The notes beneath the pieces were generated by a model. The model did no database searches. It saw only the letters and a program-made list of their open reading frames with translations, and was not told the DNA's origin. From an uncultured Sphingomonadaceae bacterium (GTDB taxonomy: Bacteria; Pseudomonadota; Alphaproteobacteria; Sphingomonadales; Sphingomonadaceae): DNA of 64,000 bases. Position numbers and translations under genes: made by a program. The stretch is taken from NCBI GenBank assembly GCA_947493215.1, contig CANLQE010000001.1, positions 434,001-498,000 of the forward strand, given 5' to 3'. Shown one piece after another: positions 7,552-44,829 of the stretch (within the stretch, counting starts at the first letter, position 1; each line of letters starts with the position of its first letter).

Positions 7552-7616
7552 CTTACTCTCCGGATATATTTATGTTGTTCCTTGGTGCCACCAACGGGTC
7601 TGTAACCAAAATCAAC

Positions 7617-8600
7617 TTATGACGCGTCTTTGGGAAGCAGGAAATAGATTTTGCGATTGGCGAAATCGATTGCCATCCGATCAAATTTTCGCAACGCATC
7701 CATGCCGAGGAACATGGCAGGCTTTTTATCCAAATTCAGCGCAGCAAAAGGTGCGATATCGGCAAAAGCAATCGGGATGATCCCAAAGCGCGCGCGGCCG
7801 ATATGGAGTTCGCTGGCAATCCCATATTCTGCCGCGACGGAGCGGCCGGTCACGTCAACAAGACTAATCTGTTGCAGCGCGGAGCGCTTCATCCGCAAGC
7901 GGCGCTGCAAGGCCTTGTTTCCGATCGATAGCTCTCCGCCAGTATCGATGATGACACTGACTTTGATTCCCGAAATTTCGGCGTTTGTAAAAATCAACTG
8001 GCCAGACCGCCGGCGTGCAGTAACGACAATCTCGCGACGAGAGCGGGCTTTACGCTTTTGGGACGTGTCCTCGACGGCAATGGAGCGGTCGAGAAAATCG
8101 AACAGGATGCGCTGCCCTTGCAAGCTGTCCAGACCCAGGACGCCATCAGCACCGATATTGGTCGACCGGAAGGTCGGTGCGACGATACCGCCATAGCTGC
8201 GGCTGCCCAATGTCAGTTCCGGCACATAGACAGTTTGCACCACCGTGTTTCCTGCTAAGGCGATGATATTGACTTCGTCTTCGAGTTCCAATGTCAGGCT
8301 GCCGGCCACTTCTTTGGATAATATCGTGCGTTGGGCCGCGGTATCGATAATGAAATCAAAAGGGCCGCTACCTTCGATGCTGACCGGAACGGTCATGCGC
8401 GCTTTCTGATCCTCTGAGATGGCAATTTGCTCGGCATCTGGTTGAATAAACTGGTCGGGCAGCCGGTCGGCCAATATCGCCTCGGGTTCGACAATTTCGG
8501 GAATGGCTGCTGCGGTTTCTGGCAGAACGGCTGCCGGTTCGGCAATTTGCAGCGAAAACAGCAGCGGTAAGGCCGCGCTTATTGGGAAAAACATACTCAT
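7617..8600 (-). CDS. Exported protein with two retropepsin-like aspartic protease domains (copy 2)
   Basis: This is a tandem paralogue of the previous gene (327 residues) with the same plan: signal peptide about 1-23, a longer Pro/Glu-rich spacer (24-62), half one with 'FIIDTAAQRTILS' (D86, DTA instead of DTG) and half two with 'VIIDTGGELSI' (D219). The linker 'EIVVTARRRSG' (190-200) is again TonB-box-like. I chose the ATG at 8600 because it starts directly at a normal signal peptide; the frame is open to 8636. It begins 61 bp after the helicase gene and is probably cotranscribed with it. DTA is found in some active retropepsins, so both copies may be active. Confidence 0.8.
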   Translation of the reverse strand: MSMFFPISAALPLLFSLQIAEPAAVLPETAAAIPEIVEPEAILADRLPDQFIQPDAEQIAISEDQKARMTVPVSIEGSGPFDFIIDTAAQRTILSKEVAGSLTLELEDEVNIIALAGNTVVQTVYVPELTLGSRSYGGIVAPTFRSTNIGADGVLGLDSLQGQRILFDFLDRSIAVEDTSQKRKARSRREIVVTARRRSGQLIFTNAEISGIKVSVIIDTGGELSIGNKALQRRLRMKRSALQQISLVDVTGRSVAAEYGIASELHIGRARFGIIPIAFADIAPFAALNLDKKPAMFLGMDALRKFDRMAIDFANRKIYFLLPKDAS

Positions 8601-8661
8601 GGATACATGGTTACTCCAATTTTCGACCGGCGACAAATGGCTTGAAGGGCAATAGGCGCTG

Positions 8662-11097: not shown

Positions 11098-11155
11098 CGC
11101 GCCACCATAAGCAGGGTGGCTGGATTATCGAATCATTTTCGGACGGTCGAGATAT

Positions 11156-11827
11156 CTAATATGTACCTATCGCGGCTTCAATGAGATCGAGCGTATGTTT
11201 GCGCACCGCCACTTTGTTGGCCCCATAGGCCCGCCCGGGAAGCTTGCTGAGCAAATCCGCCTGCTCTTTTGCGGTTTTCAAAACCAAGTCGGGATCAACC
11301 AACATGTCGATATATCCGACTTCCAGAGCTTCTGTTGGTTCGTAAAGCTGCGACTGGATGAGTGCTTGCGTCAGTTTGCGACCATCCAGGCGCGCCTTGG
11401 GAAGTTCGATGGCAAAGACCGGCAGGTTCATATTGTTAATCGTCTCATTCGCACCATAGCGAAACGCGCCGTTTGCACCGATGCGGGTGTCGCAAGCCAA
11501 TAAGAGAAACGCGCCCATGGCGATGGCATGTCCATTACATGCGGCAATGACCGGAACCCGGCTGCCATAGACTTTGAGTAGCATGTTGCTTGCTTGATCA
11601 AGCAGTTCGCCAGAACGCGCCGCCCCTTCTGCCGCCAGCCATTTGAGATCAAAGCCGCCGCTGAAAACGCCTTCGCGGCCCGACAAGATGATCGCTTTCG
11701 CGCCGCTTTCCGCTTCTTCGAACTTTGAGATAAAATCTGTCATCCAATCCGGATTAATAGCATTGGCTTTGCCATCATCCATCGTCAGATAGGCGATATC
11801 ACCGTCTATTTTTACTGTAATGCTCAT
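11156..11827 (-). CDS. Enoyl-CoA hydratase/isomerase family protein (crotonase fold)
   Basis: A short crotonase of 223 residues. 'FSGGFDLKWL' (55-64) and 'NGHAIAMGAFLLLACD' (98-113) form the oxyanion-hole regions that bind the acyl-CoA thioester carbonyl. The catalytic glutamates of classic enoyl-CoA hydratases are not clearly in place: the second position is in 'YGANETINNMN' (124-134), where E128 could serve. Exact chemistry (hydratase, isomerase or thioesterase) is therefore open. A GGAGG site lies just ahead of the ATG. A 22-bp inverted repeat sits 19 bp upstream of the start and is a likely operator, suggesting induction by a fatty-acyl or other CoA-linked signal. Confidence 0.85.
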   Translation of the reverse strand: MSITVKIDGDIAYLTMDDGKANAINPDWMTDFISKFEEAESGAKAIILSGREGVFSGGFDLKWLAAEGAARSGELLDQASNMLLKVYGSRVPVIAACNGHAIAMGAFLLLACDTRIGANGAFRYGANETINNMNLPVFAIELPKARLDGRKLTQALIQSQLYEPTEALEVGYIDMLVDPDLVLKTAKEQADLLSKLPGRAYGANKVAVRKHTLDLIEAAIGTY

Positions 11828-11845
11828 CTGGGCCTCCGCGAATAA

Positions 11846-11867
11846 AATTTAATCAATCGATTAAATT
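11846..11867. promoter_or_regulatory. 22-bp inverted repeat, likely operator of the crotonase gene
   Basis: AATTTAATC at 11846-11854 and GATTAAATT at 11859-11867 are perfect 9-bp arms around a 4-bp spacer (AATC). The site is only 19 bp from the crotonase start codon, where it would overlap the promoter or transcription start. Symmetry and size fit a dimeric regulator of the TetR or MarR kind. No such regulator gene is adjacent, so the cognate factor is unknown. Confidence 0.55.
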
Positions 11868-11911
11868 CGTCAGGAATGCAATTGCTATTTGTGGCAGTGA
11901 CGAAGAGGTTT

Positions 11912-12859
11912 CTAACGTCGCAATTCGGCCATTAACCCAAATAATTGCGTCACATCGGGCGGTGTCGTGTCGCCGGCATATTCGCGATAGAGCGTCGAAA
12001 CATTAACGGCGATCCGTTCGCTATCGCCCCAGCTGGAGAAATCGCCCAGCTTAATATCATGCGCCGCATCACGAACCGAGAGCCCCGCATCATAACGCTT
12101 GCGAGCCTCGCCATCGATATAGTGTAAATAGTCCTGAACCCGCCGGACACCGGCTTCATCGGTGATCGGGCCATGGCCCGGAACGATCGTGTGAGGTTTG
12201 AGGTCGATAATATGATCGCAAGCCGCAATCCAGTTCGACACCGGTCCTGCCCACATGATAGGGGTGCCTTCGATAAACAGGATATCGCCGGTGAAAACTG
12301 TCTTGTCGTCAGGCACATGCACCAATATGTCACCAGCTGTATGCGCTGGGCCTACCTCGATCAGATCGACCTGCTTGTCGCCGACCATCACGCTATATTC
12401 GCCGCTAAATGTCTTGGTCGGGTGTTTTTCCGCGACATCGGTAAAATCAAAGCTGCCGAAAATATCGACCAGATATTGTCCTGCCGGCCCCATGTCCTTT
12501 GCCTGCGCCATGATTGCGGCCAAGGCAGGCGCAGGCAATTCATCCATTTCGCGCGCGCTGGCGTCAGAGGCAATGACTTCGGCATGTTTGCACAAGCCAT
12601 TGCCATGACAATGATCACCATTGGCATGGGTGTTGACGATCGTACCAATATCATCCGCGCCGACCCCTGCTGCATCCGCCATGGTGGCGAGCATATCGCG
12701 CGTCAGGCTGGCATCGAATAAAGTATCGACCAGCAAGGATTGTCCGCCATCCGTTATCAGTCCGGCATTGGACCAGCCCCAACCACCATCGGGCTGCAAA
12801 TAGGCAAAGATGCCATTGCCGGTTTCATACAGACCTTTTTGGAAGGGGATGTTGTTCAT
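11912..12859 (-). CDS. MBL-fold metallo-hydrolase
   Basis: A 315-residue metallo-beta-lactamase-fold protein without a signal peptide. The main metal motif reads 'NTHANGDHCHGN': H78, N80, D82, H83. The second histidine of the usual HxHxDH is therefore asparagine. Later ligands are present in 'GPAHTAGDILVH', 'VFTGDILF' and 'VPGHGPITD'. This HxNxDH variant occurs in some members of the superfamily, so the protein may still bind one or two metals. The C-terminal part (about 235-315) is helical. It lies upstream of the crotonase on the same strand with an 84-bp gap that contains the crotonase operator. The substrate cannot be told from sequence. Confidence 0.82.
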   Translation of the reverse strand: MNNIPFQKGLYETGNGIFAYLQPDGGWGWSNAGLITDGGQSLLVDTLFDASLTRDMLATMADAAGVGADDIGTIVNTHANGDHCHGNGLCKHAEVIASDASAREMDELPAPALAAIMAQAKDMGPAGQYLVDIFGSFDFTDVAEKHPTKTFSGEYSVMVGDKQVDLIEVGPAHTAGDILVHVPDDKTVFTGDILFIEGTPIMWAGPVSNWIAACDHIIDLKPHTIVPGHGPITDEAGVRRVQDYLHYIDGEARKRYDAGLSVRDAAHDIKLGDFSSWGDSERIAVNVSTLYREYAGDTTPPDVTQLFGLMAELRR

Positions 12860-13002
12860 GCTGCCTCTCGCCTTGTCGCTATCTTGTTTTTTGATGTTTT
12901 GGCAGTTTTCGATAGTTTTGGATAGGGTGACAAAATCGGCTGCTTGGCTGCACCTTCATTGTGTCCGGACTCAATTTGTTTTACGCAGGCAACAGCAAAC
13001 TT

Positions 13003-14118
13003 ATGAATGAAACAGAACGCCCTCAATTCGGAATAGAACGGCTATTTGTCTTAGCCCTGCTGGTGAGCATTTCGCTCGCCTTTGCCTTGCTGATCGAGCC
13101 GTTTTTTGGCGCGATTGTCTGGGCGGTTGTCGTAGCAGTATTGTTTCAGCCGGTTTACCAAAAAATATCCGGATGGCTATTTCCGCGCAGCAATCTGGCG
13201 GCCTTTCTGACGCTGATATTGGTCATTTTGCTGGTGATCGTTCCCGCCATATTGCTCGGCATGGCCTTGGTGCGAGAGGCTACCAGCGCCTATGATAGCA
13301 TACAGGCCGGGGAAATTGATTTTGGCGGCGCCTTCATTGCCTTTCAGAACAGTCTGCCAACATGGGCGCAAAATGAGATAGCCGCTCTTGGCTATGGTGA
13401 TTTGGCAACCGTGCGGCCGCAGATTGAAGAGGCGATTGGCAGCAGTCTTGAATTTTTGATCGCGCAGGCGCTCAGCTTTGGTCAAGGGGCATTTCGATTT
13501 CTTCTCGCGCTCGGTGTCATGCTATATCTGACCTTCTTCTTGCTCCGGGACGGGCGCGCCTTGGCCGGTCAGATTGAGCATGTTGTGCCGCTGTCAGAGA
13601 GTAAAAGCCGCATATTGATTGATAAATTTTTTGTCGTCATCATCGCAACGATAAAGGGTAGCTTTGTTGTTGCCTTGCTTCAGGGGACCATTGGCGGCCT
13701 GATCTTCTGGGCACTGGATATTCGCGGGGCTTTGCTCTGGGCAGTGTCGATGGCGATATTGTCGCTCATCCCGGCCATTGGCACAGGCTTTATATGGGTG
13801 CCGGTAGCCATTTATCTGCTCGTGACAGGGGCGATCTGGCAAGGGGTTGTGCTTATTCTTGCCGGTATCTTCGTCATTAGCCTGGTCGATAATCTCGTCC
13901 GTCCGATATTGGTCGGACGCGACACGCGCATGCCCGATTATATCGTATTGATCTCGACATTGGGCGGTCTTCAACTGTTCGGTTTTAACGGCATTGTGAT
14001 CGGGCCATTATTGGCGGCCTTGTTCATTGCGGTCTGGCGGATTTTTGCGGAAATGAATAAAGCTGAGAGAGAACGCCTAGCGCCGGTCAAGATCGCAAGT
14101 GATAAGTCAAAGCCATAG
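13003..14118 (+). CDS. AI-2E family transporter (YdiK/PerM-type permease)
   Basis: A 371-residue integral membrane protein. Two hydrophobic stretches lie near the N-terminus ('LFVLALLVSISLAFALLIEP' and 'FGAIVWAVVVAVLFQPVY'), a further one follows, then a soluble loop, then a cluster of segments in the second half. Conserved 'LIPAIGTGFIWVPVAIYLL' and 'DNLVRPILVGRDTRMPDYIV' mark the AI-2E_transport (UPF0118) family. Members export autoinducer-2 or small ions, but function is rarely proved. I take the ATG at 13003; a GTG at 12961 is also open in frame. Its 3' end overlaps the convergent DUF1801 gene by 32 bp. Confidence 0.88.
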   Translation: MNETERPQFGIERLFVLALLVSISLAFALLIEPFFGAIVWAVVVAVLFQPVYQKISGWLFPRSNLAAFLTLILVILLVIVPAILLGMALVREATSAYDSIQAGEIDFGGAFIAFQNSLPTWAQNEIAALGYGDLATVRPQIEEAIGSSLEFLIAQALSFGQGAFRFLLALGVMLYLTFFLLRDGRALAGQIEHVVPLSESKSRILIDKFFVVIIATIKGSFVVALLQGTIGGLIFWALDIRGALLWAVSMAILSLIPAIGTGFIWVPVAIYLLVTGAIWQGVVLILAGIFVISLVDNLVRPILVGRDTRMPDYIVLISTLGGLQLFGFNGIVIGPLLAALFIAVWRIFAEMNKAERERLAPVKIASDKSKP

Positions 14119-14494
14119 CGAGACAATGTTTCACCGCCTCTCTCGGAATATCCTGATCCACATCAAAAACGACCGCGCGCGCGCCTTCAAATTTCAGAAT
14201 GTCTCCATATAATTGCTTATACCGTTCGACCAGATCGGTCTGACAATGCACATATACTGCATATTCGCTGTCAGACTTTTTGTGGCGGTTGATGCGAACG
14301 GTCGTGCCGGATTTGGTGGCCGAAGTCAGATAGGCTGGCTCTCCCCATTTCAGCGTTTCTTCGAGCGGGCCTATGGCCGGATTTTCGGCGGCGGTTTCGA
14401 GGATCAGCGCCCTAAGCGCTACCAGCCGAGCGACCATAGCTTTTGGAAGCCGGTCGAAAACCGATTGCGTTTGAGAGGGGAGCTTAGCGTTCAT
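14087..14494 (-). CDS. DUF1801 domain protein
   Basis: A soluble 135-residue protein whose 'GPLEETLKWGEPAYL' core (about 40-55) and following beta strands match the DUF1801/YdhG-like family, a small alpha/beta fold of unknown function. I chose the ATG at 14494, preceded at some distance by GTGAGG; the frame also opens with a GTG at 14512. It converges on the AI-2E transporter gene with a 32-bp overlap of coding ends, so transcription of either may affect the other. No partner is evident. Confidence 0.8.
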   Translation of the reverse strand: MNAKLPSQTQSVFDRLPKAMVARLVALRALILETAAENPAIGPLEETLKWGEPAYLTSATKSGTTVRINRHKKSDSEYAVYVHCQTDLVERYKQLYGDILKFEGARAVVFDVDQDIPREAVKHCLAMALTYHLRS

Positions 14495-14623
14495 GGCGTC
14501 ATCTTGCCTCACTGATGGTGAGATGTTTTATGCTGTGGTTAGTGGGTAGCGCAAAACGATAATTTTGACCAATCCAGAATGGGTTTCCGCTATGAGCGCA
14601 AAAGCGGACAATAGAATCCAATG

Positions 14624-15496
14624 TCAGAGGCAGTCAATAAAGTGATTTACGGTTGGTTCGGAACCCGCATCGATCAGAACGGCAGCACTGACGGAAAACT
14701 GCAAATCTTCGGGATGCGGAAAACCGCTTAACTTGCCTTGATTGATGAGTGGATCAGCTACAGATTTCGGGATGGCTGTCAGGATGTCAGACCCCACGAC
14801 CAAATCGATACAGGCCGCCTGACTGAGCAATCGGTATTTGGGAAAGCGATGCTGTTTGAGCAGAGCTTGTGTCTCTGGAGGAAGGCTGGTTTCAAACAGG
14901 GTATCAAATCCCGCAATAACCCAATCATACTCGACAACATCCGCCAGTTGAAGATCCGTCTCCAACACCGGATGATTTGGTCGACAGATGACGTAATAGG
15001 GTTCTTTGATAACCTTTCGAACGCGCAACCGATCAAGATGCGGAAGCTGGCTAAGCGTTGCTTCATTGTACAAGAGCAGATGAATACGCCTTTGGATCAA
15101 TTCCTCCACAGCATGGGTCGGTGGCATGGTCTCAGCATTGATTTTCGTTTTCGGATAACGGTTTGCGAATTTGCCAATGGCCGGATGGATCATTGTATCC
15201 AATATGGCAGGCCCACTGACAATTTGGAGAATATGCTCGCCGCTTTGTGTCTCGGCTTTGACGGTCTCCGCAAAGCTCAATAGATCGATCGCCATTGGGT
15301 AGAGCTTTTTGCCTGCTTCGGTCGGGACAACCGTACGCGTGGTGCGATGGAATAATTTCACATCCCAACTATCTTCCAATGCCTTGATGCTTTTAGTGAG
15401 CGTCGAATGGGTAAGGTGCAATTCCTGAGCCGCGCTCGAAAAACTGAGTAGTCTGTAGACCGCCTCAAAATGGCGCATTAGGCGAAGGTCATCCAT
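14624..15496 (-). CDS. LysR-family transcriptional regulator
   Basis: A 290-residue LysR-type regulator. The winged helix-turn-helix is at about 1-60, with 'SFSSAAQELHLTHSTLTKSI' as the recognition region, then the linker helix and an effector-binding domain (about 90-290). An AGGA site precedes the ATG. It diverges from a sterol-desaturase-like gene across 109 bp. In this family the regulator usually controls its divergent neighbour in response to a small ligand, so the hydroxylase and the membrane protein after it are the expected targets. The ligand is unknown. Confidence 0.92.
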   Translation of the reverse strand: MDDLRLMRHFEAVYRLLSFSSAAQELHLTHSTLTKSIKALEDSWDVKLFHRTTRTVVPTEAGKKLYPMAIDLLSFAETVKAETQSGEHILQIVSGPAILDTMIHPAIGKFANRYPKTKINAETMPPTHAVEELIQRRIHLLLYNEATLSQLPHLDRLRVRKVIKEPYYVICRPNHPVLETDLQLADVVEYDWVIAGFDTLFETSLPPETQALLKQHRFPKYRLLSQAACIDLVVGSDILTAIPKSVADPLINQGKLSGFPHPEDLQFSVSAAVLIDAGSEPTVNHFIDCL

Positions 15497-32990: not shown

Positions 32991-35900
32991 TTATTCTTCT
33001 GTCAAAAAAGCTTTTGCGCCATCGCCCAGCACAACAAATGCAGCCCAATAATAAGGATGGGATGTAATCGGATCATCCATCAGCTTCTGTTGCGCCAACC
33101 GCAGCGAGGTTGCGAGCGGCATGTCCTGTTCGGCGCCAAACATGCCTCCGATTAAACGCTCTGTTGCATCAAAATCATCGGGCACCGGCCAATGGCTGGC
33201 AACGACCGATCTTGCGCCTGCCCCAACAAAGGCGCGCACCAATCCGTCCAGCGCATAGTTGCCGCCAGTTGCGACGCCCGCTTCGCGCGACGCTCCGACG
33301 CTGGCCATTCCGGCGGTATCGCAAGCCGACAGGATTACGACATCGGCATTAAGCTGTAGGTCGAAAATTTCCTGGAAGCTGAGCAACCCGTCAGAACCTT
33401 TGTCGCCAAAGGACGTTATCAACGCGGGCCGTGCCGTACATTGAGGTTTGGGCGCAGTCACAAGGCCGTGAGTGGCAAAATGGATGATGCGATATTCATT
33501 GAGATCGTCTTGCGCCAAAAGAGCGCTGTCCGAGAAACCGGCCCCAGTGATGACGTTTGACTGTGCCGCGCCGACAATATCGCGCGCCAGATGAAGCTCG
33601 GCGCCGGAAATCGGATTGCCCCATGTTTCGGTGCCCCATTGGCACTGATCGTCTTGCGCAGCGGTATATTGCAAGCTGGCATCGGGAACCGCATTTTCGC
33701 CTAGCCCGAGATATCGATATTTTCCTGTTGATGGCGCAATCGCGCGCACCTCTGCGAAGGAGCGGGGGGACACTGCGATCGACATATCGCGGCCTTTACC
33801 AAACCATTGGACGCCGGTAAAATCAAACAAGTCTGAATCGATATCCTGCGTGCGATCAATATAAGCGTCCACGCTCGCTTGATCTTCGACCAGTAAATAG
33901 GGCGGCAATTGCAGCAGCGGCCCGTCGGGTTCGTATATGAGATGCTTCACATCGGCGAGCTGGGCCTCAACGGGCTCGAACAACGAACGGTAGAGCGTGC
34001 GCGCCAGCTCCACATTAAACGGATAGGTCGTCGGCGCGCCATATTCGATACGAACAATGGAATCGCGCAAGTCATTTATGGTTTGCTGCAGAGCTGGCAA
34101 GTCATCGGCAACCTTGAAACTGCGGACATCATCGGGTGTCACGAGGATGCTGTATATGGCATTGCCCACGATATTGACTTTATAATAGGCCTCACCGGTT
34201 CTCAGCAGCTTTTGCATTTCATCAAGTGACATGGCCTGCGGGGCGAGAACGCGGTAACGCGGGAATTTACTCAACTGGGACTGTAATTGCGTCTGCTCAA
34301 GCTCCAAAGACGTCAGGGCATCTTGAGAGTAACCAAGGTCGCGAATCTCATTGGCGTTGAGCGATCCTTTTGAGGAGAGTTGAGCGATCTGACTCCGCGT
34401 CCGAGCAATTTCGCGCGTCCGCGAGACAGCCAAACGGAATAGCGCAGAGGCTTCATCATCGCCTTCTGAAAGCTCGCGTGCAAGAGCCGCCTGGGTTTGC
34501 GCTACTCCAGGCCTTTGCAGGGCCTGAGAGGCCAAGAACATGGCAGCAGCAGCTTCTGCATCATCATCAGGTCGAGCCGTCAGCAATTCAAAATAGGGAC
34601 CGAGCAGGTCCCGCATGACTACAGCGGCACCCGGCACGGAATTGCTGTCTTCTACCACCGTCGCATAGAGCGCGAGTGCTTCGTCGACCAAGCCACTGCG
34701 CCCCTGAAATCCTGCAAATCTTGCTTTGGCGGCGAGCAAGGCCGGTGATTGTGGATATTCTGTTTCAAAAATGGAAATGGCTTCGGCAAAATAGCCTTTG
34801 GCATTATCGATTTTGCCGAGAAACTCAGATGTGAGCGCGAGTTCCGATTGGATGTCCGAGCGTAACCAGGCTGTAGAGATGACCCGGCCACCCCGTACGG
34901 CTTCGATGGTCTCTAGTGCAGCATTCTGCGCTTCGGTTGCCGCCACGAAATCTTTGTTGATGCGCATGGCAACACCGCGCAGGTGGCTGGCTTGCCCGTC
35001 GAGTATCTGACCGCGTTCAAAGTCGCTCAGTCCGCTGTCAAATCCGCCAACGCGCCGCAGGTTTTCATTCTCTCGATTAATCTGGTTCGCCAGTTCCGAT
35101 GTGATCTCACCAGACGAAACGACCGAGTCATCAATGCCGGCGGTAATTTTTACGACCGAGCGATCCAGCAAGGTTAAGGCCGCGTCGGCCTGTTGTTGGT
35201 TGAGCAGATGGATGGTCCGGAAATTGCGGATGAGCCGCTGGGTTACGCCGTCACGCGCTGCGACCGATTTATCGGCGCGATCAAATAATGCGTCGGCACT
35301 TGCGAAATTGCCGAGATTGGATTGCTGCAGGCCCTGATTGGCCAAAAATTCTGCGCCGCGGCCCGTGCTATTGCTGTCGCGCTTCACCAGCGTTTCGAAA
35401 AACTCGGAGGCCTCTGCATAGCTACCGTTATGATTGCGGGCATAAGCTTCGCTGCGGGCGCCTTCGATATCGAGAGACCCCGCTTGAATGCGAGCAAAAG
35501 CGGCCGGATCGCTAACCGATGTGGTGGCGACTTCTACTGCGCCGGCAACCGGGCGATCCGAAACAAGGGCCGCAAGGCCAAGGCGCAACGCGGAATCATA
35601 TCCTGCCAATCCCTGAGCAATATATGTCGTATTGCCGCGCGCGACCGCATAAATGCGGTGATCAATCCGTGTGACGCTGTTGGTGCAGATTGTAGAAGAT
35701 ACAGCACCGAGGTTTTCGATGGTAGCCTTGCCTTCCTGTCGGCAGGTCAGATCGGGCGATGCTTTAAAACCGGCCACGCTAACCGCATCGTCGGAAATAT
35801 CGCGAATGGCCAGGAAGGTCCCGATGCTGGTCGCCGCATCCCGGCAAACAACATTGTAACCCCGGTCAAACATGCCCGACAATCCGGCAAGATTGGGTGC

Positions 35901-36056
35901 ATTTTGTGCGGTACATAATACGCCGGTGCTGCCGATCCGAAAACTATCCTGTACGGATAAAGGCAGATCGCGGGCCGCGGCCGGTTGAGACGCAAGGGTT
36001 GCAATTGCAAAGCCGAAGAACAATCCAGCGGCCAGTTTATCATTCCGTCTGATCAT
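32991..36056 (-). CDS. Exported TPR-CHAT protein (caspase-like), partner of the TpsA exoprotein
   Basis: A 1,021-residue protein with a Sec signal peptide (about 1-28, 'LASQPAAA' before the cut). An N-terminal domain (30-150) contains four cysteines (C48, C71, C105, C124), then helical TPR-like repeats (about 195-480), a coiled-coil stretch (about 545-600) and a C-terminal CHAT domain (about 690-1015). The caspase-type dyad is intact: 'IHFATHGLV' with H863 and '[10 protein letters not shown]' with C912, followed by '[10 protein letters not shown]'. It should be a periplasmic cysteine protease. It starts inside the stop of tpsA (ATGA at 36053-36056), so it is made with the exoprotein, which is its likely substrate or cargo. 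The role is inferred from context. Confidence 0.88.
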
Positions 36057-39000
36057 TGTCCGTCCCCCTCGCCAAGGTCACTTGGTGGCGGAGCGGCGGG
36101 CGCCCCCATCAAATTTGGGTTGCCGCCACTGGTCACTGGCTCAGAGATTGATCCGGTGCTGCCCATGGGGCGGGTGTTGATTATCGAAACAGTCCGTGAA
36201 ATCGGGCTTTTGCTTGTCGCCTTTTCTTCGGCCTCTTCCTTTTCTTCCTCTGTCACTTCTTCATCCACGCCTTCTTCAACAGCCTCCTGTTGCTCCACGA
36301 TCGTGTCGCGGACGTTAGAGGCTATAGGCGTGTCTTCGCTATTCATGGTTATGCAGACCGTTGCGGTGAGCAAACAACCGTTGATGCTGGATTCAGCAGT
36401 AAAACCGCTGGTCGGCGCTGTCGGGAAAATCGAATCCCGAACATCGCTGTTGATCACTTGGGTACCATCGGCGTTCAGTGTCGCGCCGTAAATGACAACA
36501 TCCAGATCATTTCCGCCTGTCGGAATAATCTCTACTTCGCCGGTTTCTGCGTAGAAACCATAGGCTATCCCGCCCACGCCGACATTTTGGATGAGCAGGG
36601 TCTCTTCGGCTCCAAATGTAATGCGCGCTGCCTGAATGGAACCATCCGGATTGCCCGTCGGTGTGGCTCTCGCCAACAGACTGTCCCGTCCGACAAAGAA
36701 CGGATCAACCGCCAATTGGTCGAGCAAAGCCGTGCTGCCAACATGAATATGCCGCGCGGAAATATCCAGCGTGCCACCGGGCGAGCTACCTTCCATCAGG
36801 ATGCCGCCCGTGTCGCTAGCCACGCTGATGATGTCGCCGGTTAGCGATAGAAGATTGTCCAGTGCCAGATCAGTCAGATTGAGATTGCCCGAAACCCGGA
36901 TATTATTTGCCGAAGATATCTGTAAACTACCGTCGGGGCCAACCAGATTGCTGCTCGCCCCGTTTGAACCGGTCAGGTTCAGGTCACCAATGACGATCCC
37001 GCTCGAGCCATCAGAATTAATGCTGATCACATTGGAACGGAGCCGTCCGGCTTCTGCGTTGCTTAACGCATAGCCCAACGGGCCAGAAGCGACATCGCCG
37101 ATCGAAGCACCGTCTGTACCGCTATTGGTCAATGTCAGTTCGGTGGTATTTTCATCGCCCAGACCGCCGCTCGCGCCGATATCGATATCGCTGGATATCA
37201 ACATTATGGTTGGTGCGGTTAAGGCCCCGCCAAAGCCTGCGAGGCCAGCTGCTTCGACGCTAAACAAGGTCGAAAGTGCCATGTTGCCCTGGCTGACAAA
37301 ATCACCAGCCGTGGCCGCAACCAAATTGCCGCCGGATACAGCGTTGTTGATCGTTATCGAACCACTGGTTGCCACTGGGTCAAGCGCAAACAAGGGTGTG
37401 GGATCGCCATTAGGTCCAAAAAACGTATCCATGCTGGAATTGGCGAGATATATGAAATTATCCGGACCGTTCGCTGTGCTAATAGCGCCCGCCGTGATGC
37501 CAGTGCCGGCCAAGAATATGGCATCGGTAGCGCTAGTGACATTACCGGTGGTTATTGCTGATGGTGTCAATAGGCCAATGGCCGCTGAACCAGTGGAAAG
37601 ATCGCCGGTGGAAATGCCTCCAGCGGTATCGATGGCAATACCCAAGACGCCGCCATTGCCGACGCCTTGTGCTGAAATATTGCCGTAGCTGCCGCTGCCC
37701 AGAGCCTGCGATTCAAAAGCACCGTCCGTCATAATCGCGCCAGTGCCTAAAATCGATTGGTCCGAGTCCAGCCTGATGTCGTCAGTACTGGTCAAACTGC
37801 CGGTCTGCACATTGCCGCCAGCAACTATATCGATCAAACCGCCTGCATTGGCATTTGCCAGGACAAGAGCGTCGGCAGCGTCAACAACAATGTCAGTGCC
37901 TGCATCGATATTGCCACCAGAGATTGTTCCTGTCTGAGATATGATTTGCGCTGACAATACCGCTGTAACATCGGTCAATGTGATAGCATTGAGCGCATCG
38001 GCTTGAACATTCGCGCCAGCATCAATGATACCCGCCATTACCGCACCGGCATTGGCAGTCAGGATGGCATCACCATCCGTATCTATAGCAAGGGCGGTCA
38101 CGTTGCCGCTTACGGACGTCGCCTGTACCGGTCCAACAGCCGTCAGATTGCCCAACATCAGATCCGAATCAGCAGACACGATCACCGCTCCGGTGCTGTC
38201 CAGATCACCGGTCGCTAATGTCCCGGTGGCATCCAGCATAAGATCACCGACGCTCGATAGATTCCCGGTCTGCAAACTGCCGGTTACGGCGATATCGATC
38301 ACGCCACCGCTGACTATGTCGCCAAAGCTGACATCACCGGTGACCGCAGTGATCAAGCCCGCCGCAGCGTCGATATTTGTGCTCAAGATAACATCCGCTG
38401 CTGACGCCAAGAGCGTCGTGCCCCCGACGGACAGCAATCCGGGATTAACGGGCGGTATGCCATCGCTGCTGACGACAAAGGTGCCGTTGGTATCAAGATC
38501 AAGATTGCCGCCGATAGTAATCGCGCCACTATCTGTTACGACAGCGATATTGCTGTCGGTGACCAAAGTCAGGTCATTGGTGACATTGAGCGTGCCATCT
38601 ACGGCAGAGAAAAAACTGGGCGGATCGCCGGCATCGGCGGTATCGCCCGATATAAACGCATCATATGACGCGATCGTTGCTGTACCCTGCACAATATCAA
38701 TGACACCAATCCCGACTGTACTGGTTCCTGCAACAGCGCCTGCTCCGGCATTGGCCGTGCTGAAAATATTGATATTACCCGCGTTCAGCGAACCCTGTTC
38801 GGTTCGGTTTAGGCGATTGGCAACAAATATTAAGGCGTCAGAACCGATTGCATTGCCGCCATTGCCTTGTGTTGCGCCGGCTCCGCCATCTCCGCCAACC
38901 GATTGGGCAGTGTAGCTCACGTCACCGATAGTAACCGGTGAGCCGCGCGGGAGAATTGTCAGTGCACCAGCGAGGGCTTCCCCGCCGTCTCCGCCATCGC

Positions 39001-42000
39001 CAATTATCCCGCCCGTGCCGCCATTACCGCCATTTCCTGCGACAGCATCGGTCGTAATGAACGCGTTGCCATATGTTGCAGACCCCAAAGTGTCTGGGGT
39101 ATCAATGCTGCTGACAGAACCGAGCACAACCCTGGTCGCTTCTGCTGATCCGCCAGAACCGCCATTGCCGCCTGCGCCCAGCCCGCCATCACCGCCAATG
39201 CCGCCGATGCCGCCGACCACAGAACTATTGATGGTCACGTTACCAAGCGTTAATACGCCGCTACCCGCTGTGGCTAAGAGTGATATTTCTTCGCCCGGCA
39301 TAGCATTACCGCCATTGCCGCCGGCACCGCCAGCGATGCCATTGCCGCCATTGCCGGCGCTTGCCAAATTATCAATAACCACGTCGTCAAAACTAATGGT
39401 GCTGAGACCACCAGCTAAGGAACTGGAGGGCCTTATAAATGTCATTCCACCAACAACATTCCCGCCATCAAATCCATCAGCGCTGCTGCCAGCCGTTGCG
39501 TCAGTAGCAATGCTCAGGTTGTTGCCGGTTAGGACGCCACCGCCTCCGCCAGCGGCTGTAATATTGGCAGAACCACCGATTGCGTCGCCGCCGAGACCAT
39601 TTCTCAATGATGTTCCAGCATTGGCAGCGCCTCTTAAAAGAGTGTTTCCGCCGATAGATATCATGCCAGCGGAACCGATCGAAAGCGCCAGCGCTCCGCC
39701 CGTGGCATCACCTGCATTTCCGTTAGAGGCGTCACCACCCACAGCATCAGCAAGCAATGTCGTTCCGCCGGTAATATCGATCAGATTATTTGCGCCGCCA
39801 TTGGCGCTTATATTAATGTTGCCACCAGTGCCGGTGCCACCGCCAGCGCCACCGCGGCCATTGCCTTGGGTACCCAGGTCGAGTGCCCCAGTGACATTTA
39901 TATTCGCATTGTCGCCATTGGCTACCAGCTGAATGGCGCCGCCAGAGGCACTGCCCCCAATAGCTGTGGCCGTTCCGGCTGTTCCAAATGCCGCCCCAAA
40001 CAGGCCGTCAAAGTTGATCGTCGTCCCTGTCTCGGCAATGACATTAATATCGCCACCGGTCGCATTTCCACCATTTCCGCTGGAAAAATTGGCGTGCTCT
40101 GCAAAGGCATTGATGGTCGTTGCGCCCAGATCGACGAGGTTATTTGTTCCGCCGCCACCGGTAATGGTGACAGACCCGCCAACAGTATTGGCACCATTTA
40201 GATTGATGCCCATTTCGGTTGAATCACGGCCTTCGGCGGTAATTGTTGTGGCCGTTCCGACCAGAAGACCTGCGTTACCGCCACTTGCGCCCAGTAAAAC
40301 CGTACCGCCAATGCCGTCCCCGCCATCACTGCCGCTATCAGCATTTCCGCCAAAACCAGTGACACCCAGATTCAATAGAGAGGTCACGTTAATTGTACTA
40401 TTCGCGCCCGCTTGCGCAAAAATGGCGCCGCCGGTGCCGCTGCCTGCGCTCACGCCCATCCCATCGCCGCCGAAGCCTGATGCAATAAGCGTGGTGTCGC
40501 CGACCAGATTCACAATGCCGCCGCCATTGGCGAGCAAGTTCGTTGTTCCGCCGATACCCGCTCCGCCGTCAAAACCACCAAAGCCGTCGGCGGAAGCAAA
40601 GCTGGTGCCGCTTATGGTCAATGTCCCACCATTGGCGATGATGCTCGCGGTACCGCCAGTGCCGTCATCTGGGCCGGATCCGGAAATGCCATTGGCGCTC
40701 AGGTTAACATTATCATTGACCGTCAGATTGCCGCCGCTCGATTCCAACGCGACAGAGCCACCGAAACTGCTGCTTTCGCCAAATGCGTCCGCGTTGAGGT
40801 CAACCGGACCGGTTATCGTAATATTGCCAGGGCCAGATCTGATCGTGCCAGAACCACCTAGTGCGGTTCCGGGCATTCCCAAGCTACTAAAACCGCCATT
40901 GACGGCGCTCGCCAGCTGCACATCCGCGCCGGTCGTTATAATGCCGGTCGCATCGGATGTTGTGATCAACATTGTGCCACCGGTCACATCGCCGCCATTG
41001 CCGAGCGCGTCGCTATTGCCGCCCTGCACCATTCCGCCAGCGATGAGCGTGCCGACAAAATTCAATGTGGTTCCGGAACCAGCATCGATCGTAATGTCAC
41101 CGCCTAGGGCCGAACCGGCATCGCCAGAAAATGCATCCGCACCTAGTGCACCCGTGCCAACTGTCGTGAAGCCTCCAATGTCGATCAGATTATTCGCGCC
41201 GCCCGTGCCAGAAATAGTGATCGTGCCGCCGACGGCATTGCCATTGGTATCATTTAGGCCGCCATTACCCGACGATCCGTTGCTCGCCGCAGAAATGAAT
41301 AGATTGCCGTCAATGGACACAGTTGAGTTGCCATCATTGGCCAATAGTCTGCCGGTACCGCCGATGCCGTCACCGCCATCAACCCCGCTGCCGCTAAAAC
41401 CGCCAATTCCGTCGGCGAACATCGTGACTGCGCCGCTGACATTTACGGCGCCGCCGCCTTCTGCGCCAATCTCTACTGTTCCGCCAAATCCGTCACCAAG
41501 CTTGCCAACGCCGAAATTATCGGCGCCCGTGCCATTGGCACTGAGCATGACATCGCCATTTAAAGTAATGGCTCCGCCGCTGCCGAGGATGCCGATCACG
41601 CCACCGGTGCCGTCTGCCCCGTCCATCACGCCCTGAACATCAGCGCTCAGGTTCGTAATACCATCGACGGTAATCGCGCTACCCGCTCCGTTGGCCATGA
41701 CATCGACAAGATCATCGGCCCGCAATGTCAGGTTGGAGGCAAATGCCATCGCGCCTGCACTGGCGATCGCCGTGATATTGTTCGAAGCGCGCGCGGAAAC
41801 GGCTGATGTGAAACTGTTATTCTCAATTTCGATAGATGCATCAATGCCGTTGACTGGCGTGTTCGCAATGACATCGCCCGCAACATTATGGCCGGCCGAC
41901 AAAATCACCGCATTGCCGACGACATCCGCGGCTCCGGCAATATCAAAGCCGATGTCACCGCCATTTTGGATGGCGATGCTGATCGCGTTATTTTTCGGGA

Positions 42001-42880
42001 CTGCGACCGCATAGACACGGTGATTATCACCCACGCCGCTGCTGGCAGGACCGGCTGTGACACCATCATGACGCAAGGCGACACCGGTTGGGATATCGCC
42101 GTCCGTGCCAATGGTGACGTTAATGTCAAACAGGCCCTGATTAAATGTAATTGATGCCTGTTCCGCCGCGATATAGGCGGCCGAGCCGTTTACGTCGACA
42201 TCGCCCAACTGTCCGACAATAGGCGCAAGCAGGCCGACATAGCTGTTTTCAGGCGTCAGCGTGATCGAAGCACCCGCATCAATTTCCGCAAAAGTTCCGC
42301 TTATCGCCGGGGCGAAATTGGTCGTTCCGCCGGGACCGATAAAATTACCGTCCGGATCAACAAACGGATCAGCAGTGGTCAGGAAAAGCCCGCCGACATC
42401 GATAACCGCCGTTCCGCCAATGACGATACCACCGGGCGCATAAAACCAGACGCTTCCGCCGGGAAGAAATCCACTGAAACCATCAGTAACCTGGGTGGTA
42501 ATATTTCCGTTTAAAATTATCGGCCGCGTATTATCAACCGGGATAATCCGATTAAGGATGGTGAAGTTTGATGGGCCACCCATATCAGTCTGGAAAATCG
42601 CTGCATTACCGTCCGGCAGAAAATCAATGTCCGCGCCATTAACCGCCGTGTCATTGGGCGCCCAATCAATCACCACCTGATCTGCAAAAGCCGTGATGGT
42701 ATCCACAAATGCGTTTGAACTAATGTCAGCGTCACCGGATGAAACGGTAGGCGTCCCTTGAAATGCCGCTTGGGCATGAACGGTTGAGGACGTGCCAAAG
42801 AAAAGGCCAAGGGCAAGCGCTGCGCTGGATCCTAATGGCCGATAGCGAAGCGAATGTAAGGGCCTGGATTTACCGGTCAT
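36053..42880 (-). CDS. Filamentous-haemagglutinin-type exoprotein, TpsA of a two-partner secretion system
   Basis: A 2,275-residue secreted protein. A signal peptide (about 1-36) is followed by a TPS secretion domain (about 37-290) in which the usual NPNGI is replaced by 'APGGIVIG' (148-155). A glycine- and asparagine-rich repeat region (about 360-1,370) has recurring 'GGANNLIDI'-like units; then come about 20-residue beta-helix rungs (about 1,500-1,790), then a C-terminal part. The only two cysteines of the whole chain, C2169 and C2176, lie in 'NGCLLTATVCI'. A Glu-rich segment and the tail 'SEPVTSGGNPNLM' follow. I chose the ATG at 42880, which overlaps the tpsB stop as TAATG and has GGGG 9 bp upstream. 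It probably forms a long surface fibre. Confidence 0.88.
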   Translation of the reverse strand: MTGKSRPLHSLRYRPLGSSAALALGLFFGTSSTVHAQAAFQGTPTVSSGDADISSNAFVDTITAFADQVVIDWAPNDTAVNGADIDFLPDGNAAIFQTDMGGPSNFTILNRIIPVDNTRPIILNGNITTQVTDGFSGFLPGGSVWFYAPGGIVIGGTAVIDVGGLFLTTADPFVDPDGNFIGPGGTTNFAPAISGTFAEIDAGASITLTPENSYVGLLAPIVGQLGDVDVNGSAAYIAAEQASITFNQGLFDINVTIGTDGDIPTGVALRHDGVTAGPASSGVGDNHRVYAVAVPKNNAISIAIQNGGDIGFDIAGAADVVGNAVILSAGHNVAGDVIANTPVNGIDASIEIENNSFTSAVSARASNNITAIASAGAMAFASNLTLRADDLVDVMANGAGSAITVDGITNLSADVQGVMDGADGTGGVIGILGSGGAITLNGDVMLSANGTGADNFGVGKLGDGFGGTVEIGAEGGGAVNVSGAVTMFADGIGGFSGSGVDGGDGIGGTGRLLANDGNSTVSIDGNLFISAASNGSSGNGGLNDTNGNAVGGTITISGTGGANNLIDIGGFTTVGTGALGADAFSGDAGSALGGDITIDAGSGTTLNFVGTLIAGGMVQGGNSDALGNGGDVTGGTMLITTSDATGIITTGADVQLASAVNGGFSSLGMPGTALGGSGTIRSGPGNITITGPVDLNADAFGESSSFGGSVALESSGGNLTVNDNVNLSANGISGSGPDDGTGGTASIIANGGTLTISGTSFASADGFGGFDGGAGIGGTTNLLANGGGIVNLVGDTTLIASGFGGDGMGVSAGSGTGGAIFAQAGANSTINVTSLLNLGVTGFGGNADSGSDGGDGIGGTVLLGASGGNAGLLVGTATTITAEGRDSTEMGINLNGANTVGGSVTITGGGGTNNLVDLGATTINAFAEHANFSSGNGGNATGGDINVIAETGTTINFDGLFGAAFGTAGTATAIGGSASGGAIQLVANGDNANINVTGALDLGTQGNGRGGAGGGTGTGGNINISANGGANNLIDITGGTTLLADAVGGDASNGNAGDATGGALALSIGSAGMISIGGNTLLRGAANAGTSLRNGLGGDAIGGSANITAAGGGGGVLTGNNLSIATDATAGSSADGFDGGNVVGGMTFIRPSSSLAGGLSTISFDDVVIDNLASAGNGGNGIAGGAGGNGGNAMPGEEISLLATAGSGVLTLGNVTINSSVVGGIGGIGGDGGLGAGGNGGSGGSAEATRVVLGSVSSIDTPDTLGSATYGNAFITTDAVAGNGGNGGTGGIIGDGGDGGEALAGALTILPRGSPVTIGDVSYTAQSVGGDGGAGATQGNGGNAIGSDALIFVANRLNRTEQGSLNAGNINIFSTANAGAGAVAGTSTVGIGVIDIVQGTATIASYDAFISGDTADAGDPPSFFSAVDGTLNVTNDLTLVTDSNIAVVTDSGAITIGGNLDLDTNGTFVVSSDGIPPVNPGLLSVGGTTLLASAADVILSTNIDAAAGLITAVTGDVSFGDIVSGGVIDIAVTGSLQTGNLSSVGDLMLDATGTLATGDLDSTGAVIVSADSDLMLGNLTAVGPVQATSVSGNVTALAIDTDGDAILTANAGAVMAGIIDAGANVQADALNAITLTDVTAVLSAQIISQTGTISGGNIDAGTDIVVDAADALVLANANAGGLIDIVAGGNVQTGSLTSTDDIRLDSDQSILGTGAIMTDGAFESQALGSGSYGNISAQGVGNGGVLGIAIDTAGGISTGDLSTGSAAIGLLTPSAITTGNVTSATDAIFLAGTGITAGAISTANGPDNFIYLANSSMDTFFGPNGDPTPLFALDPVATSGSITINNAVSGGNLVAATAGDFVSQGNMALSTLFSVEAAGLAGFGGALTAPTIMLISSDIDIGASGGLGDENTTELTLTNSGTDGASIGDVASGPLGYALSNAEAGRLRSNVISINSDGSSGIVIGDLNLTGSNGASSNLVGPDGSLQISSANNIRVSGNLNLTDLALDNLLSLTGDIISVASDTGGILMEGSSPGGTLDISARHIHVGSTALLDQLAVDPFFVGRDSLLARATPTGNPDGSIQAARITFGAEETLLIQNVGVGGIAYGFYAETGEVEIIPTGGNDLDVVIYGATLNADGTQVINSDVRDSIFPTAPTSGFTAESSINGCLLTATVCITMNSEDTPIASNVRDTIVEQQEAVEEGVDEEVTEEEKEEAEEKATSKSPISRTVSIINTRPMGSTGSISEPVTSGGNPNLMGAPAAPPPSDLGEGDGQ

Positions 42881-44628
42881 TAGCGTTTTCCCCATGGGAG
42901 TAACTTGGTCGTAAAGGACAATAGAAAGCGGACATCGCCCTTGCGGGTCTGCAATCCTGCTGCGCGCGTCGGCAAGGCGATGGTCAGGTCAAGCCGCGCG
43001 CGATCGGAAATAGTGCTGCGCAATCCGCCACCAACTGATAATAATCGCTGCGGATCAAGATTGCCGGGACGGTCCTTGTTCCACACCCATGCCGCATCAA
43101 CAAAAGCAAAGGGCTGGATTGTGACGTTGGACATTTTCGGCGGACTGATCCGCGGACCGCGTGCTTCCAACTGAAAACCGGCGCCATCGTCGCCGATAAT
43201 CACGCCCGGTTCATAGCCGCGCCCAATCGTGTAATTGCCAGCCGAATATTCTTCAAAACTGAACAAGGGATCAAAGGCATATTGCGCTTTGGGACTGATA
43301 AAAAATGACAGCTGCGGCGACACCACATATTCAGCCGAAACCGATGCCCTGATGCTGGTGGCCGTCGGGTCGCCATCAATCCTGCTGGGCAGGGTGACGC
43401 CAGCCGGGCATAGCGGATTGCAACCCTTGCTCGCTCCCAATATGCTTAAACCGCGCCGCAATTCGAGGCTGCCGGCGACCCGCCATTTGGGCGCGCCAGT
43501 CGACGGGTCATCAATGGCGTCGGCGGTAAGGCGGGCATAGGCGACACGCAGCCGGTCCTGGCTCAGCGGTGTAATGAAATTGACCTTCTGGTTCACATAG
43601 TCAAAGCCGCCTGCGACCGTCAGATTGCGGGTCTGGCTGCGAATGACCGGATAGCTTGCCTCGGCCGATGCCAATAAGGTGCGCGCCGTCAGATCAGGCG
43701 TATTGCCACCGCCAAAATCACCCAGATCGGGTTTTGTCCACGCATAGGTGAAACGGCCGTTAAAGCGCAAACCTTCGCCGCCGACACGAAAGCTGTGGCT
43801 TGCTTGCAAAATTTGCTGCTCTCTAAATTCTGCCGTCGAATAGAATGAAATACTGGTGCTATCGCCCATGCCGGTAAGGCCATGAAATTGTGCGCGGACC
43901 TGTCCGCCCCATATTCCGGTGTCCTGTGCGGCCAAATTCTGGATGTTAAAATCCACTTCAAACGGTTTTCTCGTAACCGTAACGTCGCCGATAAGATCTC
44001 CTGCGGCAGTGCCTGCGGGCCGCAAGGTCAGCCGCACGTCGTAACCGGGAAGGTCGCGAGCCAGCAAAAGATAGCGCTCGGCATTATTGCGGTTGAAAAT
44101 GGGATCATCTTCCAGTTTTGCCAGATATCCGCCGATTAATTTCTCCGCACGGCCGGCTTGGCCACGCACCCGTACGCTGGTGATGCGGGCGTAGAGCACT
44201 TCGAATTTTATCTGTCCGCCTTCGATCCGTTGGGCTGGCACTTCTACAGCGGCCAGATAGCCTTTGTTCCTTAACACTGTCGCGGCGGCATCGCGGATTT
44301 CACATACCCGTTTGATCGGCTGTGATTTCCCCAAATAGGGCCCGTAAGTCTGCCGCATTTCTGCTTCGGTTATGCCCTGCAAATTGTTGAAAAACACATC
44401 ATCAATATCGACGCGAATATCATCATATTCCGGCTTATCCAGCGGGCAGGGCGATCGTTCGACATTATCTGTAATCGTGAGACGCGGCTGGTCCTCGCCA
44501 ACCGGAGGAACAACAGGTGCTATCTCGTCGCGCGTAGGCGGATTGATCTGCTGCCCATAGGCAACAGATGCATTAAAGGTCGCCAGCACGCTAGCAGTGC
44601 CAACAAGGCCCCAATTTTTGAATTTCAC
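42880..44628 (-). CDS. Two-partner secretion pore, ShlB/FhaC/HecB family (TpsB)
   Basis: A 582-residue outer-membrane transporter. A signal peptide (about 1-25) is followed by a short linker with proline-rich start (28-50), a POTRA-2-like domain (about 70-155, 'LQGITEAEMRQTYGPYLGK' and 'NKGYLAAVEVPAQRI'), and a 16-strand barrel from about 215. The loop-6 motif 'IGRGYEPG' (G469-Y472) corresponds to the VRGY element of FhaC. The chain ends 'LLPWGKR'. I chose the GTG at 44628, with GGGGA 7 bp upstream, because it begins a perfect signal peptide. The frame is open to a TTG at 44670. It is the first gene of the tpsB-tpsA-CHAT module. Confidence 0.9.
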   Translation of the reverse strand: MKFKNWGLVGTASVLATFNASVAYGQQINPPTRDEIAPVVPPVGEDQPRLTITDNVERSPCPLDKPEYDDIRVDIDDVFFNNLQGITEAEMRQTYGPYLGKSQPIKRVCEIRDAAATVLRNKGYLAAVEVPAQRIEGGQIKFEVLYARITSVRVRGQAGRAEKLIGGYLAKLEDDPIFNRNNAERYLLLARDLPGYDVRLTLRPAGTAAGDLIGDVTVTRKPFEVDFNIQNLAAQDTGIWGGQVRAQFHGLTGMGDSTSISFYSTAEFREQQILQASHSFRVGGEGLRFNGRFTYAWTKPDLGDFGGGNTPDLTARTLLASAEASYPVIRSQTRNLTVAGGFDYVNQKVNFITPLSQDRLRVAYARLTADAIDDPSTGAPKWRVAGSLELRRGLSILGASKGCNPLCPAGVTLPSRIDGDPTATSIRASVSAEYVVSPQLSFFISPKAQYAFDPLFSFEEYSAGNYTIGRGYEPGVIIGDDGAGFQLEARGPRISPPKMSNVTIQPFAFVDAAWVWNKDRPGNLDPQRLLSVGGGLRSTISDRARLDLTIALPTRAAGLQTRKGDVRFLLSFTTKLLPWGKR

Positions 44629-44829
44629 CCAATTTTCCCCAAAAACAGCGCCCCACACGCTGCGTACCAATTACACTAAAGCCAATAGGTTACAAACTGA
44701 AACACACTATTAACTATGGCAAAAAATATTTTTTACAGTGATGGCTATCACAATAGGCGTGCGCAACCGATCGCTCCTATTGGCACGCTATGGAAAACGA
44801 TTGTCTTAGGTAGGCTATTGGGAGGAAGG
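44629..44829. promoter_or_regulatory. Promoter region of tpsB-tpsA-CHAT with repeated CAATAGG heptamer
   Basis: This 201-bp gap precedes tpsB and is far richer in A and T than the flanking genes. CAATAGG stands at 44683-44689 and 44751-44757, and its complement CCTATTG at 44776-44782; a partial copy (CTATTG) is at 44815-44820. The second and third form an inverted pair with 18 bp between the arms. A perfect A6-TA-T6 palindrome fills 44721-44734. The layout suggests a regulator with several sites plus a bendable tract, so the module probably has its own control apart from the lspA-bamF transcript. No clear -35/-10 pair is seen. Confidence 0.45.

Follow-up and report, generated by a model that had tools for sequence, protein, structure and literature searches.

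Gene organization of the locus

The DNA studied here, hereafter the window, is a stretch of 64,000 nucleotides from the genome of an uncultured Sphingomonadaceae bacterium, and it encodes a two-partner secretion (TPS) system together with an exported caspase-like protein. Three co-directional open reading frames (ORFs) with overlapping ends lie on the minus strand, to which all window positions given below refer. They encode TpsB, an outer-membrane transporter of the ShlB/FhaC type with POTRA domains (42880..44628); TpsA, an exoprotein of 2280 residues (36053..42895); and a TPR-CHAT caspase-like protein of 1021 residues with a signal-like start (32991..36056). The TAATG at the end of the TpsB gene contains a start for TpsA, with an alternative in-frame ATG 15 bases earlier, and the TpsA and CHAT genes overlap at an ATGA. 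A first-pass annotation of this DNA had described the overlapping layout, a signal peptide on the CHAT protein, and an intact His-Cys dyad; the trio is real, with both junctions, the signal-like start, and the dyad all present.

For TpsB, the ShlB (E=2.2e-17) and POTRA_2 (5e-6) matches both exceed the Pfam cut-offs, and homologues and a paralogue support the assignment. A GTG start at 44628 gives a protein of 582 residues, which is also the TpsB length in three related loci (L005-L007), and a longer alternative begins at a TTG at 44670. Full-length TpsA has no Pfam or NCBIfam match at E up to 0.01. Its N-terminal 325 residues alone match the TPS domain PF05860 at E=1.2e-4, below the curated cut-off, and the same domain is matched by 26 of 36 TpsA N-termini of the family, at best with 1.1e-11. 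An AlphaFold model of the TpsA N-terminus (mean pLDDT 81) has as its 23 best matches in the PDB TPS exoproteins or their secretion domains, including EtpA, HxuA, HMW1, hemolysin A, and FHA. Because the domain match, the relatives, and the fold of the model agree, TpsB and TpsA are a genuine but divergent TPS pair, with the features of two-partner secretion (type Vb): a ShlB/FhaC barrel with POTRA in TpsB and an N-terminal TPS domain in TpsA. TpsA would be exported by the Sec pathway and threaded N-terminus first through TpsB.

The CHAT domain of the third protein (residues 683-1012; 33021..34010) is matched by Pfam at E=2.7e-54, above the cut-off, and contains the His-Cys dyad expected of a CHAT peptidase of clan CD. 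Both dyad residues, H863 and C912 (33321..33470), are invariant in 63/63 aligned homologues, comprising 61 of the 80 CHAT-anchored loci described below and the two copies of this genome. The domain is preceded by an N-terminal beta domain and, at about residues 184-600 (34257..35507), by a TPR-like alpha-solenoid delineated from the secondary structure of the AlphaFold model; by sequence the TPR repeats fall below the Pfam cut-offs, and the modeled solenoid matches TPR domains, whose grooves often bind short peptides, judging from the PDB titles of the matches. Six further cysteines are invariant. In structure comparison the CHAT model resembles Csx29 and separase and also matches the solved structure of DdvA. 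A sequence profile of the CHAT family searched against the PDB found no CHAT structure, only the TPR proteins kinesin light chain, CpoB, and O-GlcNAc transferase, so it is Pfam and the fold that tie the protein to Csx29 and separase. The stretch from 917 to 933, just past the catalytic cysteine, is modeled with low confidence, as an activation loop would be, though the cause may simply be a weak model. The signal-like start points to a periplasmic location for the protein.

The C-terminus of TpsA

TpsA of the window contains two cysteines in all, C2174 and C2181 (36353..36376), spaced by seven residues and located 107 and 100 residues before its end. Behind this pair follows a tail of 99 residues (36056..36352), consisting of an acidic linker and then SEPVTSGGNPNLMG, with the conserved end motif EPVTSGGN (36119..36142). 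The pair pattern S..NGC......C and the end motif I.EPV.G.GNP.L recur across the CHAT-anchored loci, the general form of the motif being EPVxGxGNxxL-like within a tail of about 100 residues. A DNA pattern for EPVxxxGN occurs four times in the genome, at the genome's two TpsA tails and at two spots opposite longer reading frames, and a generic sorting signal was therefore rejected for this genome.

Conservation of the gene set

Among the best 80 of 245 relatives found in genome contigs, taken as CHAT-anchored loci, 76 loci, all from other genomes, have a TPS gene or a TpsA tail next to CHAT, and the association is thus more than chance. TpsA lies directly before CHAT in 47 loci, two of which have a CHASE2-cyclase and a small protein after CHAT, and in 40 of the 47 TpsA terminates in ATGA or GTGA, as expected if it overlaps a start codon. 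Another 20 loci have the order CHAT-CHASE2/cyclase-small protein-TpsB-TpsA, and one more reaches TpsB before the contig ends. Eight of the other 12 have a TpsA tail in frame ending at or near the CHAT start; of the remaining four, L058 and L069 end too early, and L045 and L054, with 1.1 and 0.5 kb of upstream sequence, have no visible tail.

A two-way survey of 219 genomes of the window's own family, the Sphingomonadaceae, to whose uncultured members the closest matches in the searches belong, gave 114 TpsB rows (E<=1e-30 to the window's TpsB) and 100 CHAT rows (E<=about 1e-58), after one second TpsB fragment, three second CHAT fragments, and CHAT rows weaker than about 1e-58 had been dropped. 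With a link defined as the same strand and at most 30 kb, 94 of the 114 TpsB rows have a CHAT of the family, and 94 of the 100 CHAT rows have such a TpsB. Six CHAT rows have no TpsB: three are gene pieces split between contigs, in two (G382 and G301) the stretch directly upstream encodes TpsA or its tail, and only G311 is truly split. The pore, the giant surface protein, and the exported caspase-like protein are thus kept together across related bacteria. Beyond that single split they are not found apart in neighboring species, an outcome that the first-pass annotation had named as contrary to its reading. Their order is not fixed, and the window's arrangement is the less common one in its own family, where CHAT comes first in 56 of the linked TpsB rows and TpsB in 38.

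The association extends beyond the family. In 60 genomes sampled across the order, 9 of 17 strong CHAT matches (E<1e-20) have ShlB on the same strand no more than 14 kb away. Among 150 genomes sampled across the phylum, at least 10 have the two genes within that distance, in two of these (G095, G174) on opposite strands, and seven of the 10 are outside the window's family. Both counts were made by eye. A TpsB-TpsA-CHAT trio is present in another family of the same class (L112), and in another family of the phylum (L120) TpsB and CHAT are adjacent and the TPS-domain protein is divergent. Other arrangements include CHAT-small protein-CHASE2/cyclase-TpsB-TpsA (L126, genome G051) and CHAT-TpsB-TpsA (L127, genome G012), where CHASE2/cyclase and small protein lie at another place in the genome (L104). 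A related CHAT gene is found on Pseudosulfitobacter plasmids (46 records, e.g., L088; the listed records are mostly about 82 kb and from diatom cultures), and in the one such region examined a hypothetical gene directly follows CHAT. CHAT proteins of about 2560-2850 residues occur at L113-L116, and in L114, the one scanned, CHAT is preceded by numerous TPR repeats and a PD40 repeat. TpsA-CHAT fusions, suggested by frames of about 2600 residues in the phylum sample, were rejected: L114 is a TPR/PD40-CHAT protein without a TPS domain in Pfam, and at L112 a TpsA distinct from the long frame overlaps it.

Co-occurrence of the tail with CHAT

A model of the tail, based on the window and 46 TpsA-first loci, was applied to 20 TpsA proteins from CHAT-first loci, selected among 56 such rows. 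It matches 18 of the 20 at E<1, and by reading 19 carry a form of DEPVTGAGNDDLW, L169 being missed by the model only and L158 being the exception. Across the 79 CHAT-linked TpsA of the window's TpsB family (which leaves out the distant L112, L117-L123, L125, and L126, and also L187 and L188), 78 have the cysteine pair and 70 match a regular expression for the motif, as against one among 13 relatives without CHAT (L137, where the match falls inside the cysteine pair) and one among 11 distant TpsA without CHAT; the chance rate on shuffled tails is 2.7-4.2%. The CHAT-less control comprises all 20 TpsB rows without CHAT nearby, 15 from genomes without a listed family CHAT and five from genomes with one elsewhere. 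A complete TpsA was readable in 13 of these regions; all 13 have the C-terminal cysteine pair, and 9 end 1-30 residues after it.

In TpsB trees most CHAT-linked rows fall in one clade, and a clade of 15 rows mixes linked and unlinked ones. Within the latter, all seven linked TpsA have the pair, a tail, and a related motif by regular expression and reading rather than by the tail model (TGSSNESLW, TGATNEALW twice, IGRGNEGLI, VGRGNEGLI, VGTNNEGLF, and VGTNNESLF), and the five readable unlinked TpsA stop near the pair. Two CHAT-less rows inside the main CHAT clade, L132 and L134, also have no TpsA nearby. Tail and CHAT therefore differ together at few but separate points. As to labels, L117, L118, L120, and L122, which belong to other families and have CHAT beside TpsB, were marked CHAT-less in the first tree and excluded from the second, and L136, marked CHAT-less in both, is on an uninformative 9.3-kb contig.

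A second locus and neighboring genes

The same genome contains a second locus (L001) with CHAT, a CHASE2-adenylyl cyclase, a 271-residue protein with a signal-like start (by reading), TpsB, and TpsA, and the trio is therefore present twice, in two orders. Identities to the window are 45% for CHAT, 47% for TpsB, and 45% for the TpsA N-terminus. The small protein (6677-7492 of L001) has relatives of about 240-330 residues, as called, in L044-L083; the one scanned has no Pfam match, and among the 80 loci it is present wherever a full CHASE2-cyclase was called. A third TpsB (L003, G000:C1:1386000-1405000, at 9499-15202) has a FecR-domain protein and a CHASE2-EAL protein as neighbors, and no TpsA was seen there; a CHASE2 protein is near TpsB in L094 and L104, and a FecR-like protein, by reading, is in L095 and L104, so that a separate TpsB-FecR-CHASE2 cassette is possible. 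A third CHAT gene, of 507 residues, lies beside a protein with a weak DUF4231 match (L002, G000:C1:822000-836000, at 6588-8111 and 8244-10244).

The identified genes flanking the window's trio are housekeeping genes, purH on one side and lspA and ileS on the other, and neither CHASE2 nor the small protein is beside it. A Pfam and NCBIfam scan of eight proteins between 31 and 51 kb found the TPS pair, CHAT, and housekeeping genes, and the CRISPR partners Cas7-11/gRAMP and Csx30 were not among these eight. A promoter search was uninformative (7 found vs 9.2 expected), and terminator-like sites were in excess (25 vs 13.8 expected) yet scattered within genes.

Discussion

In the passages cited here, the TPS adhesin CdrA is arrested by a C-terminal cysteine hook and cut near its C-terminus by LapG, a periplasmic transglutaminase-like cysteine proteinase (PMC5422565, PMC4694147, PMC7616799, PMC11898600). 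We propose a similar arrangement here: CHAT would be a caspase-like protease of the periplasm, and its target the tail of the cognate TpsA retained there, much as CdrA is the target of LapG. We hold this reading in roughly equal measure of confidence and doubt. The C-terminal cysteine pair, a candidate hook by analogy with CdrA, would form a disulfide that stops TpsA in the TpsB pore, leaving the last 60-340 residues in the periplasm. Encoded in the same cluster and likewise exported, the TPR-CHAT protein might then dock on the end motif of the tail via its TPR solenoid and, once activated, cut the tail, which would free or trim the anchored surface protein. In CHAT-first loci, the CHASE2-adenylyl cyclase and the small protein with its signal-like start could couple this event to cAMP. 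That the tail usually accompanies CHAT within the family suggests that CHAT acts on it. The first-pass annotation had offered processing or release of TpsA as one possible role, and the CHAT-linked tail behind a cysteine pair gives that idea a firmer footing, cleavage itself staying conditional; its interpretation as a whole is partly supported.

Several observations weigh against tail-directed action. Having a tail does not require CHAT: L141 and L145-L147, four CHAT-less relatives, carry one of 63-70 residues that ends differently. The regular expression was written after the tails had been seen, and the linked counts are therefore not blind; of its nine misses among the linked TpsA, L020, L028, and L158 show no recognizable motif in the last 60 residues, the other six being motif variants by reading that fall outside the expression. 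The tail model did not match L111 or L176-L181, whose motif rests on the regular expression and on reading. The tail characterizes the window's TpsB family rather than CHAT-linked TPS systems in general: among more distant CHAT-linked TpsA, the one of L126 lacks cysteines altogether as well as a tail of this kind, and those of L117-L120, L123, and L125 terminate in another pattern that recurs among them. The CHAT gene of G311 is kept with CHASE2 and the small protein without TPS genes in cis, and the end motif could serve TpsB rather than CHAT. Finally, the CHAT state changes only about five times on the TpsB trees, and few independent events therefore back the correlation, which shared descent explains in part. 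The recurring pattern of L117-L120, L123, and L125 is roughly C....S.FV..G.GGLP....D, with a last cysteine. The exoproteins that carry it are encoded next to TpsB and CHAT; L125 is from a genome of the window's own family, the others from other families of the phylum, and the pattern may be the tail of a second lineage of CHAT-linked systems.

The main rival is a surface-sensing switch, in which the TpsA tail is an input rather than a substrate: its binding or absence would activate CHAT, which would then cleave a different protein of the envelope, for instance the CHASE2-cyclase or the small protein next to it, and so signal the state of adhesion or secretion. We consider this unlikely, and it is nonetheless live because, in the CHAT-first loci among the 80, CHAT and TpsB are separated by a CHASE2-cyclase and a small protein. 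The same company is kept in G311, a CHAT gene lies beside an annotated Chase2 protein on a Calothrix plasmid, and Csx29 is, in the passages cited, activated allosterically via its TPR region and cuts a sigma-factor inhibitor (PMC10028731). Against such a switch, the window has neither CHASE2 nor the small protein beside the trio, and 45 of the 80 loci are TpsA-CHAT without them, though locus ends limit the view.

Quite improbable in our estimate is a main role of the TPR-CHAT protein in periplasmic chaperoning or quality control, whereby it escorts TpsA to TpsB or clears stalled TpsA with the tail as a handle. Its large TPR-like surface and the overlapping genes would suit this role, as TPS exoproteins must be kept unfolded before export; an invariant dyad would be needless for a pure chaperone, however, and the handle would be at the C-terminus, the last part to leave. 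Still less do we credit the view that these are co-regulated neighbors without direct interplay, with a tail that tracks CHAT only through one old shared lineage. The few CHAT-state changes, the relatedness of many rows, and the distant CHAT-linked TpsA without the tail all favor it, but the set persists through several gene orders (with CHAT last or first, and the cyclase present or absent), and the tail and CHAT vary in step inside the 15-row clade. Hardly tenable is a module for contact-dependent inhibition or defense with TpsA as toxin carrier: TPS systems do include CdiA, according to the passage available from a review, but no known toxin domain was seen in TpsA at the thresholds given above, and the next identified genes are purH and lspA, the scan not covering the short ORFs between TpsB and lspA.

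If tail-directed CHAT action is correct, one lineage of bacterial CHAT proteins gains an envelope substrate with a short, testable motif, and the task of LapG on CdrA would have been solved a second time by an unrelated protease. More tentatively, and with the balance slightly toward doubt, the locus may represent a widespread class in which a caspase-family protease is devoted to one exoprotein, recognizes and cuts its conserved C-terminal retention tail within the periplasm, and thereby switches a giant fiber between an anchored and a released state, some members being wired to CHASE2-cAMP signaling. A tail of about 100 residues that accompanies its presumed protease makes the substrate question of exported CHAT proteins directly testable.

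Comparison with known systems

The closest parallel is CdrA-CdrB with LapG in Pseudomonas aeruginosa, where a C-terminal cysteine hook anchors a TPS surface protein on which a cysteine protease of the periplasm acts; for the window, the hook, the periplasmic setting, and the proteolysis are conjectural. The likeness is one of proposed mechanism only: the putative protease here is a TPR-CHAT protein of the caspase fold encoded beside the TPS genes, the CHAT-first loci have a CHASE2-cyclase as neighbor rather than LapD, and a conserved tail lies behind the pair, which the cited passages do not describe for CdrA. In FhaB-FhaC of Bordetella, a TPS exoprotein is also paired with a protease, SphB1, which releases FhaB as we propose for TpsA; SphB1 is, in the passages seen, a subtilisin autotransporter encoded outside the fhaB-fhaC locus, whereas the CHAT gene of the window sits in the TPS gene cluster.

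Among TPR-CHAT proteins, Csx29 of type III-E CRISPR (Craspase) shares the fold and the His-Cys dyad, and the cited passages report that a change in its TPR region switches CHAT on (PMC10028731). Unlike Csx29, the CHAT protein of the window has a signal-like start, an N-terminal beta domain, and the six further invariant cysteines, and it is no member of the type III-E CRISPR TPR-CHAT group. The first-pass annotation had regarded a CHAT protein linked to the envelope as unusual, but there are precedents: HetF of Anabaena is, in the passages available, a CHAT protein with TPR and a predicted transmembrane segment, and DdvA of Myxococcus, whose fold the CHAT model matches, is a transmembrane anti-sigma factor by its PDB title. 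The passages cited on these two mention no TPS system, to which the window's CHAT is tied. A full-text search of open-licence PMC papers found none joining CHAT with two-partner secretion, ShlB, filamentous hemagglutinin, or CHASE2, and in the one plasmid region of this family that was examined, the TPS genes and the cyclase beside CHAT carry the annotation "hypothetical protein." Each part is known from elsewhere, and what is new is that a TPS system has its own putative CHAT protease and that its TpsA bears a CHAT-associated tail.

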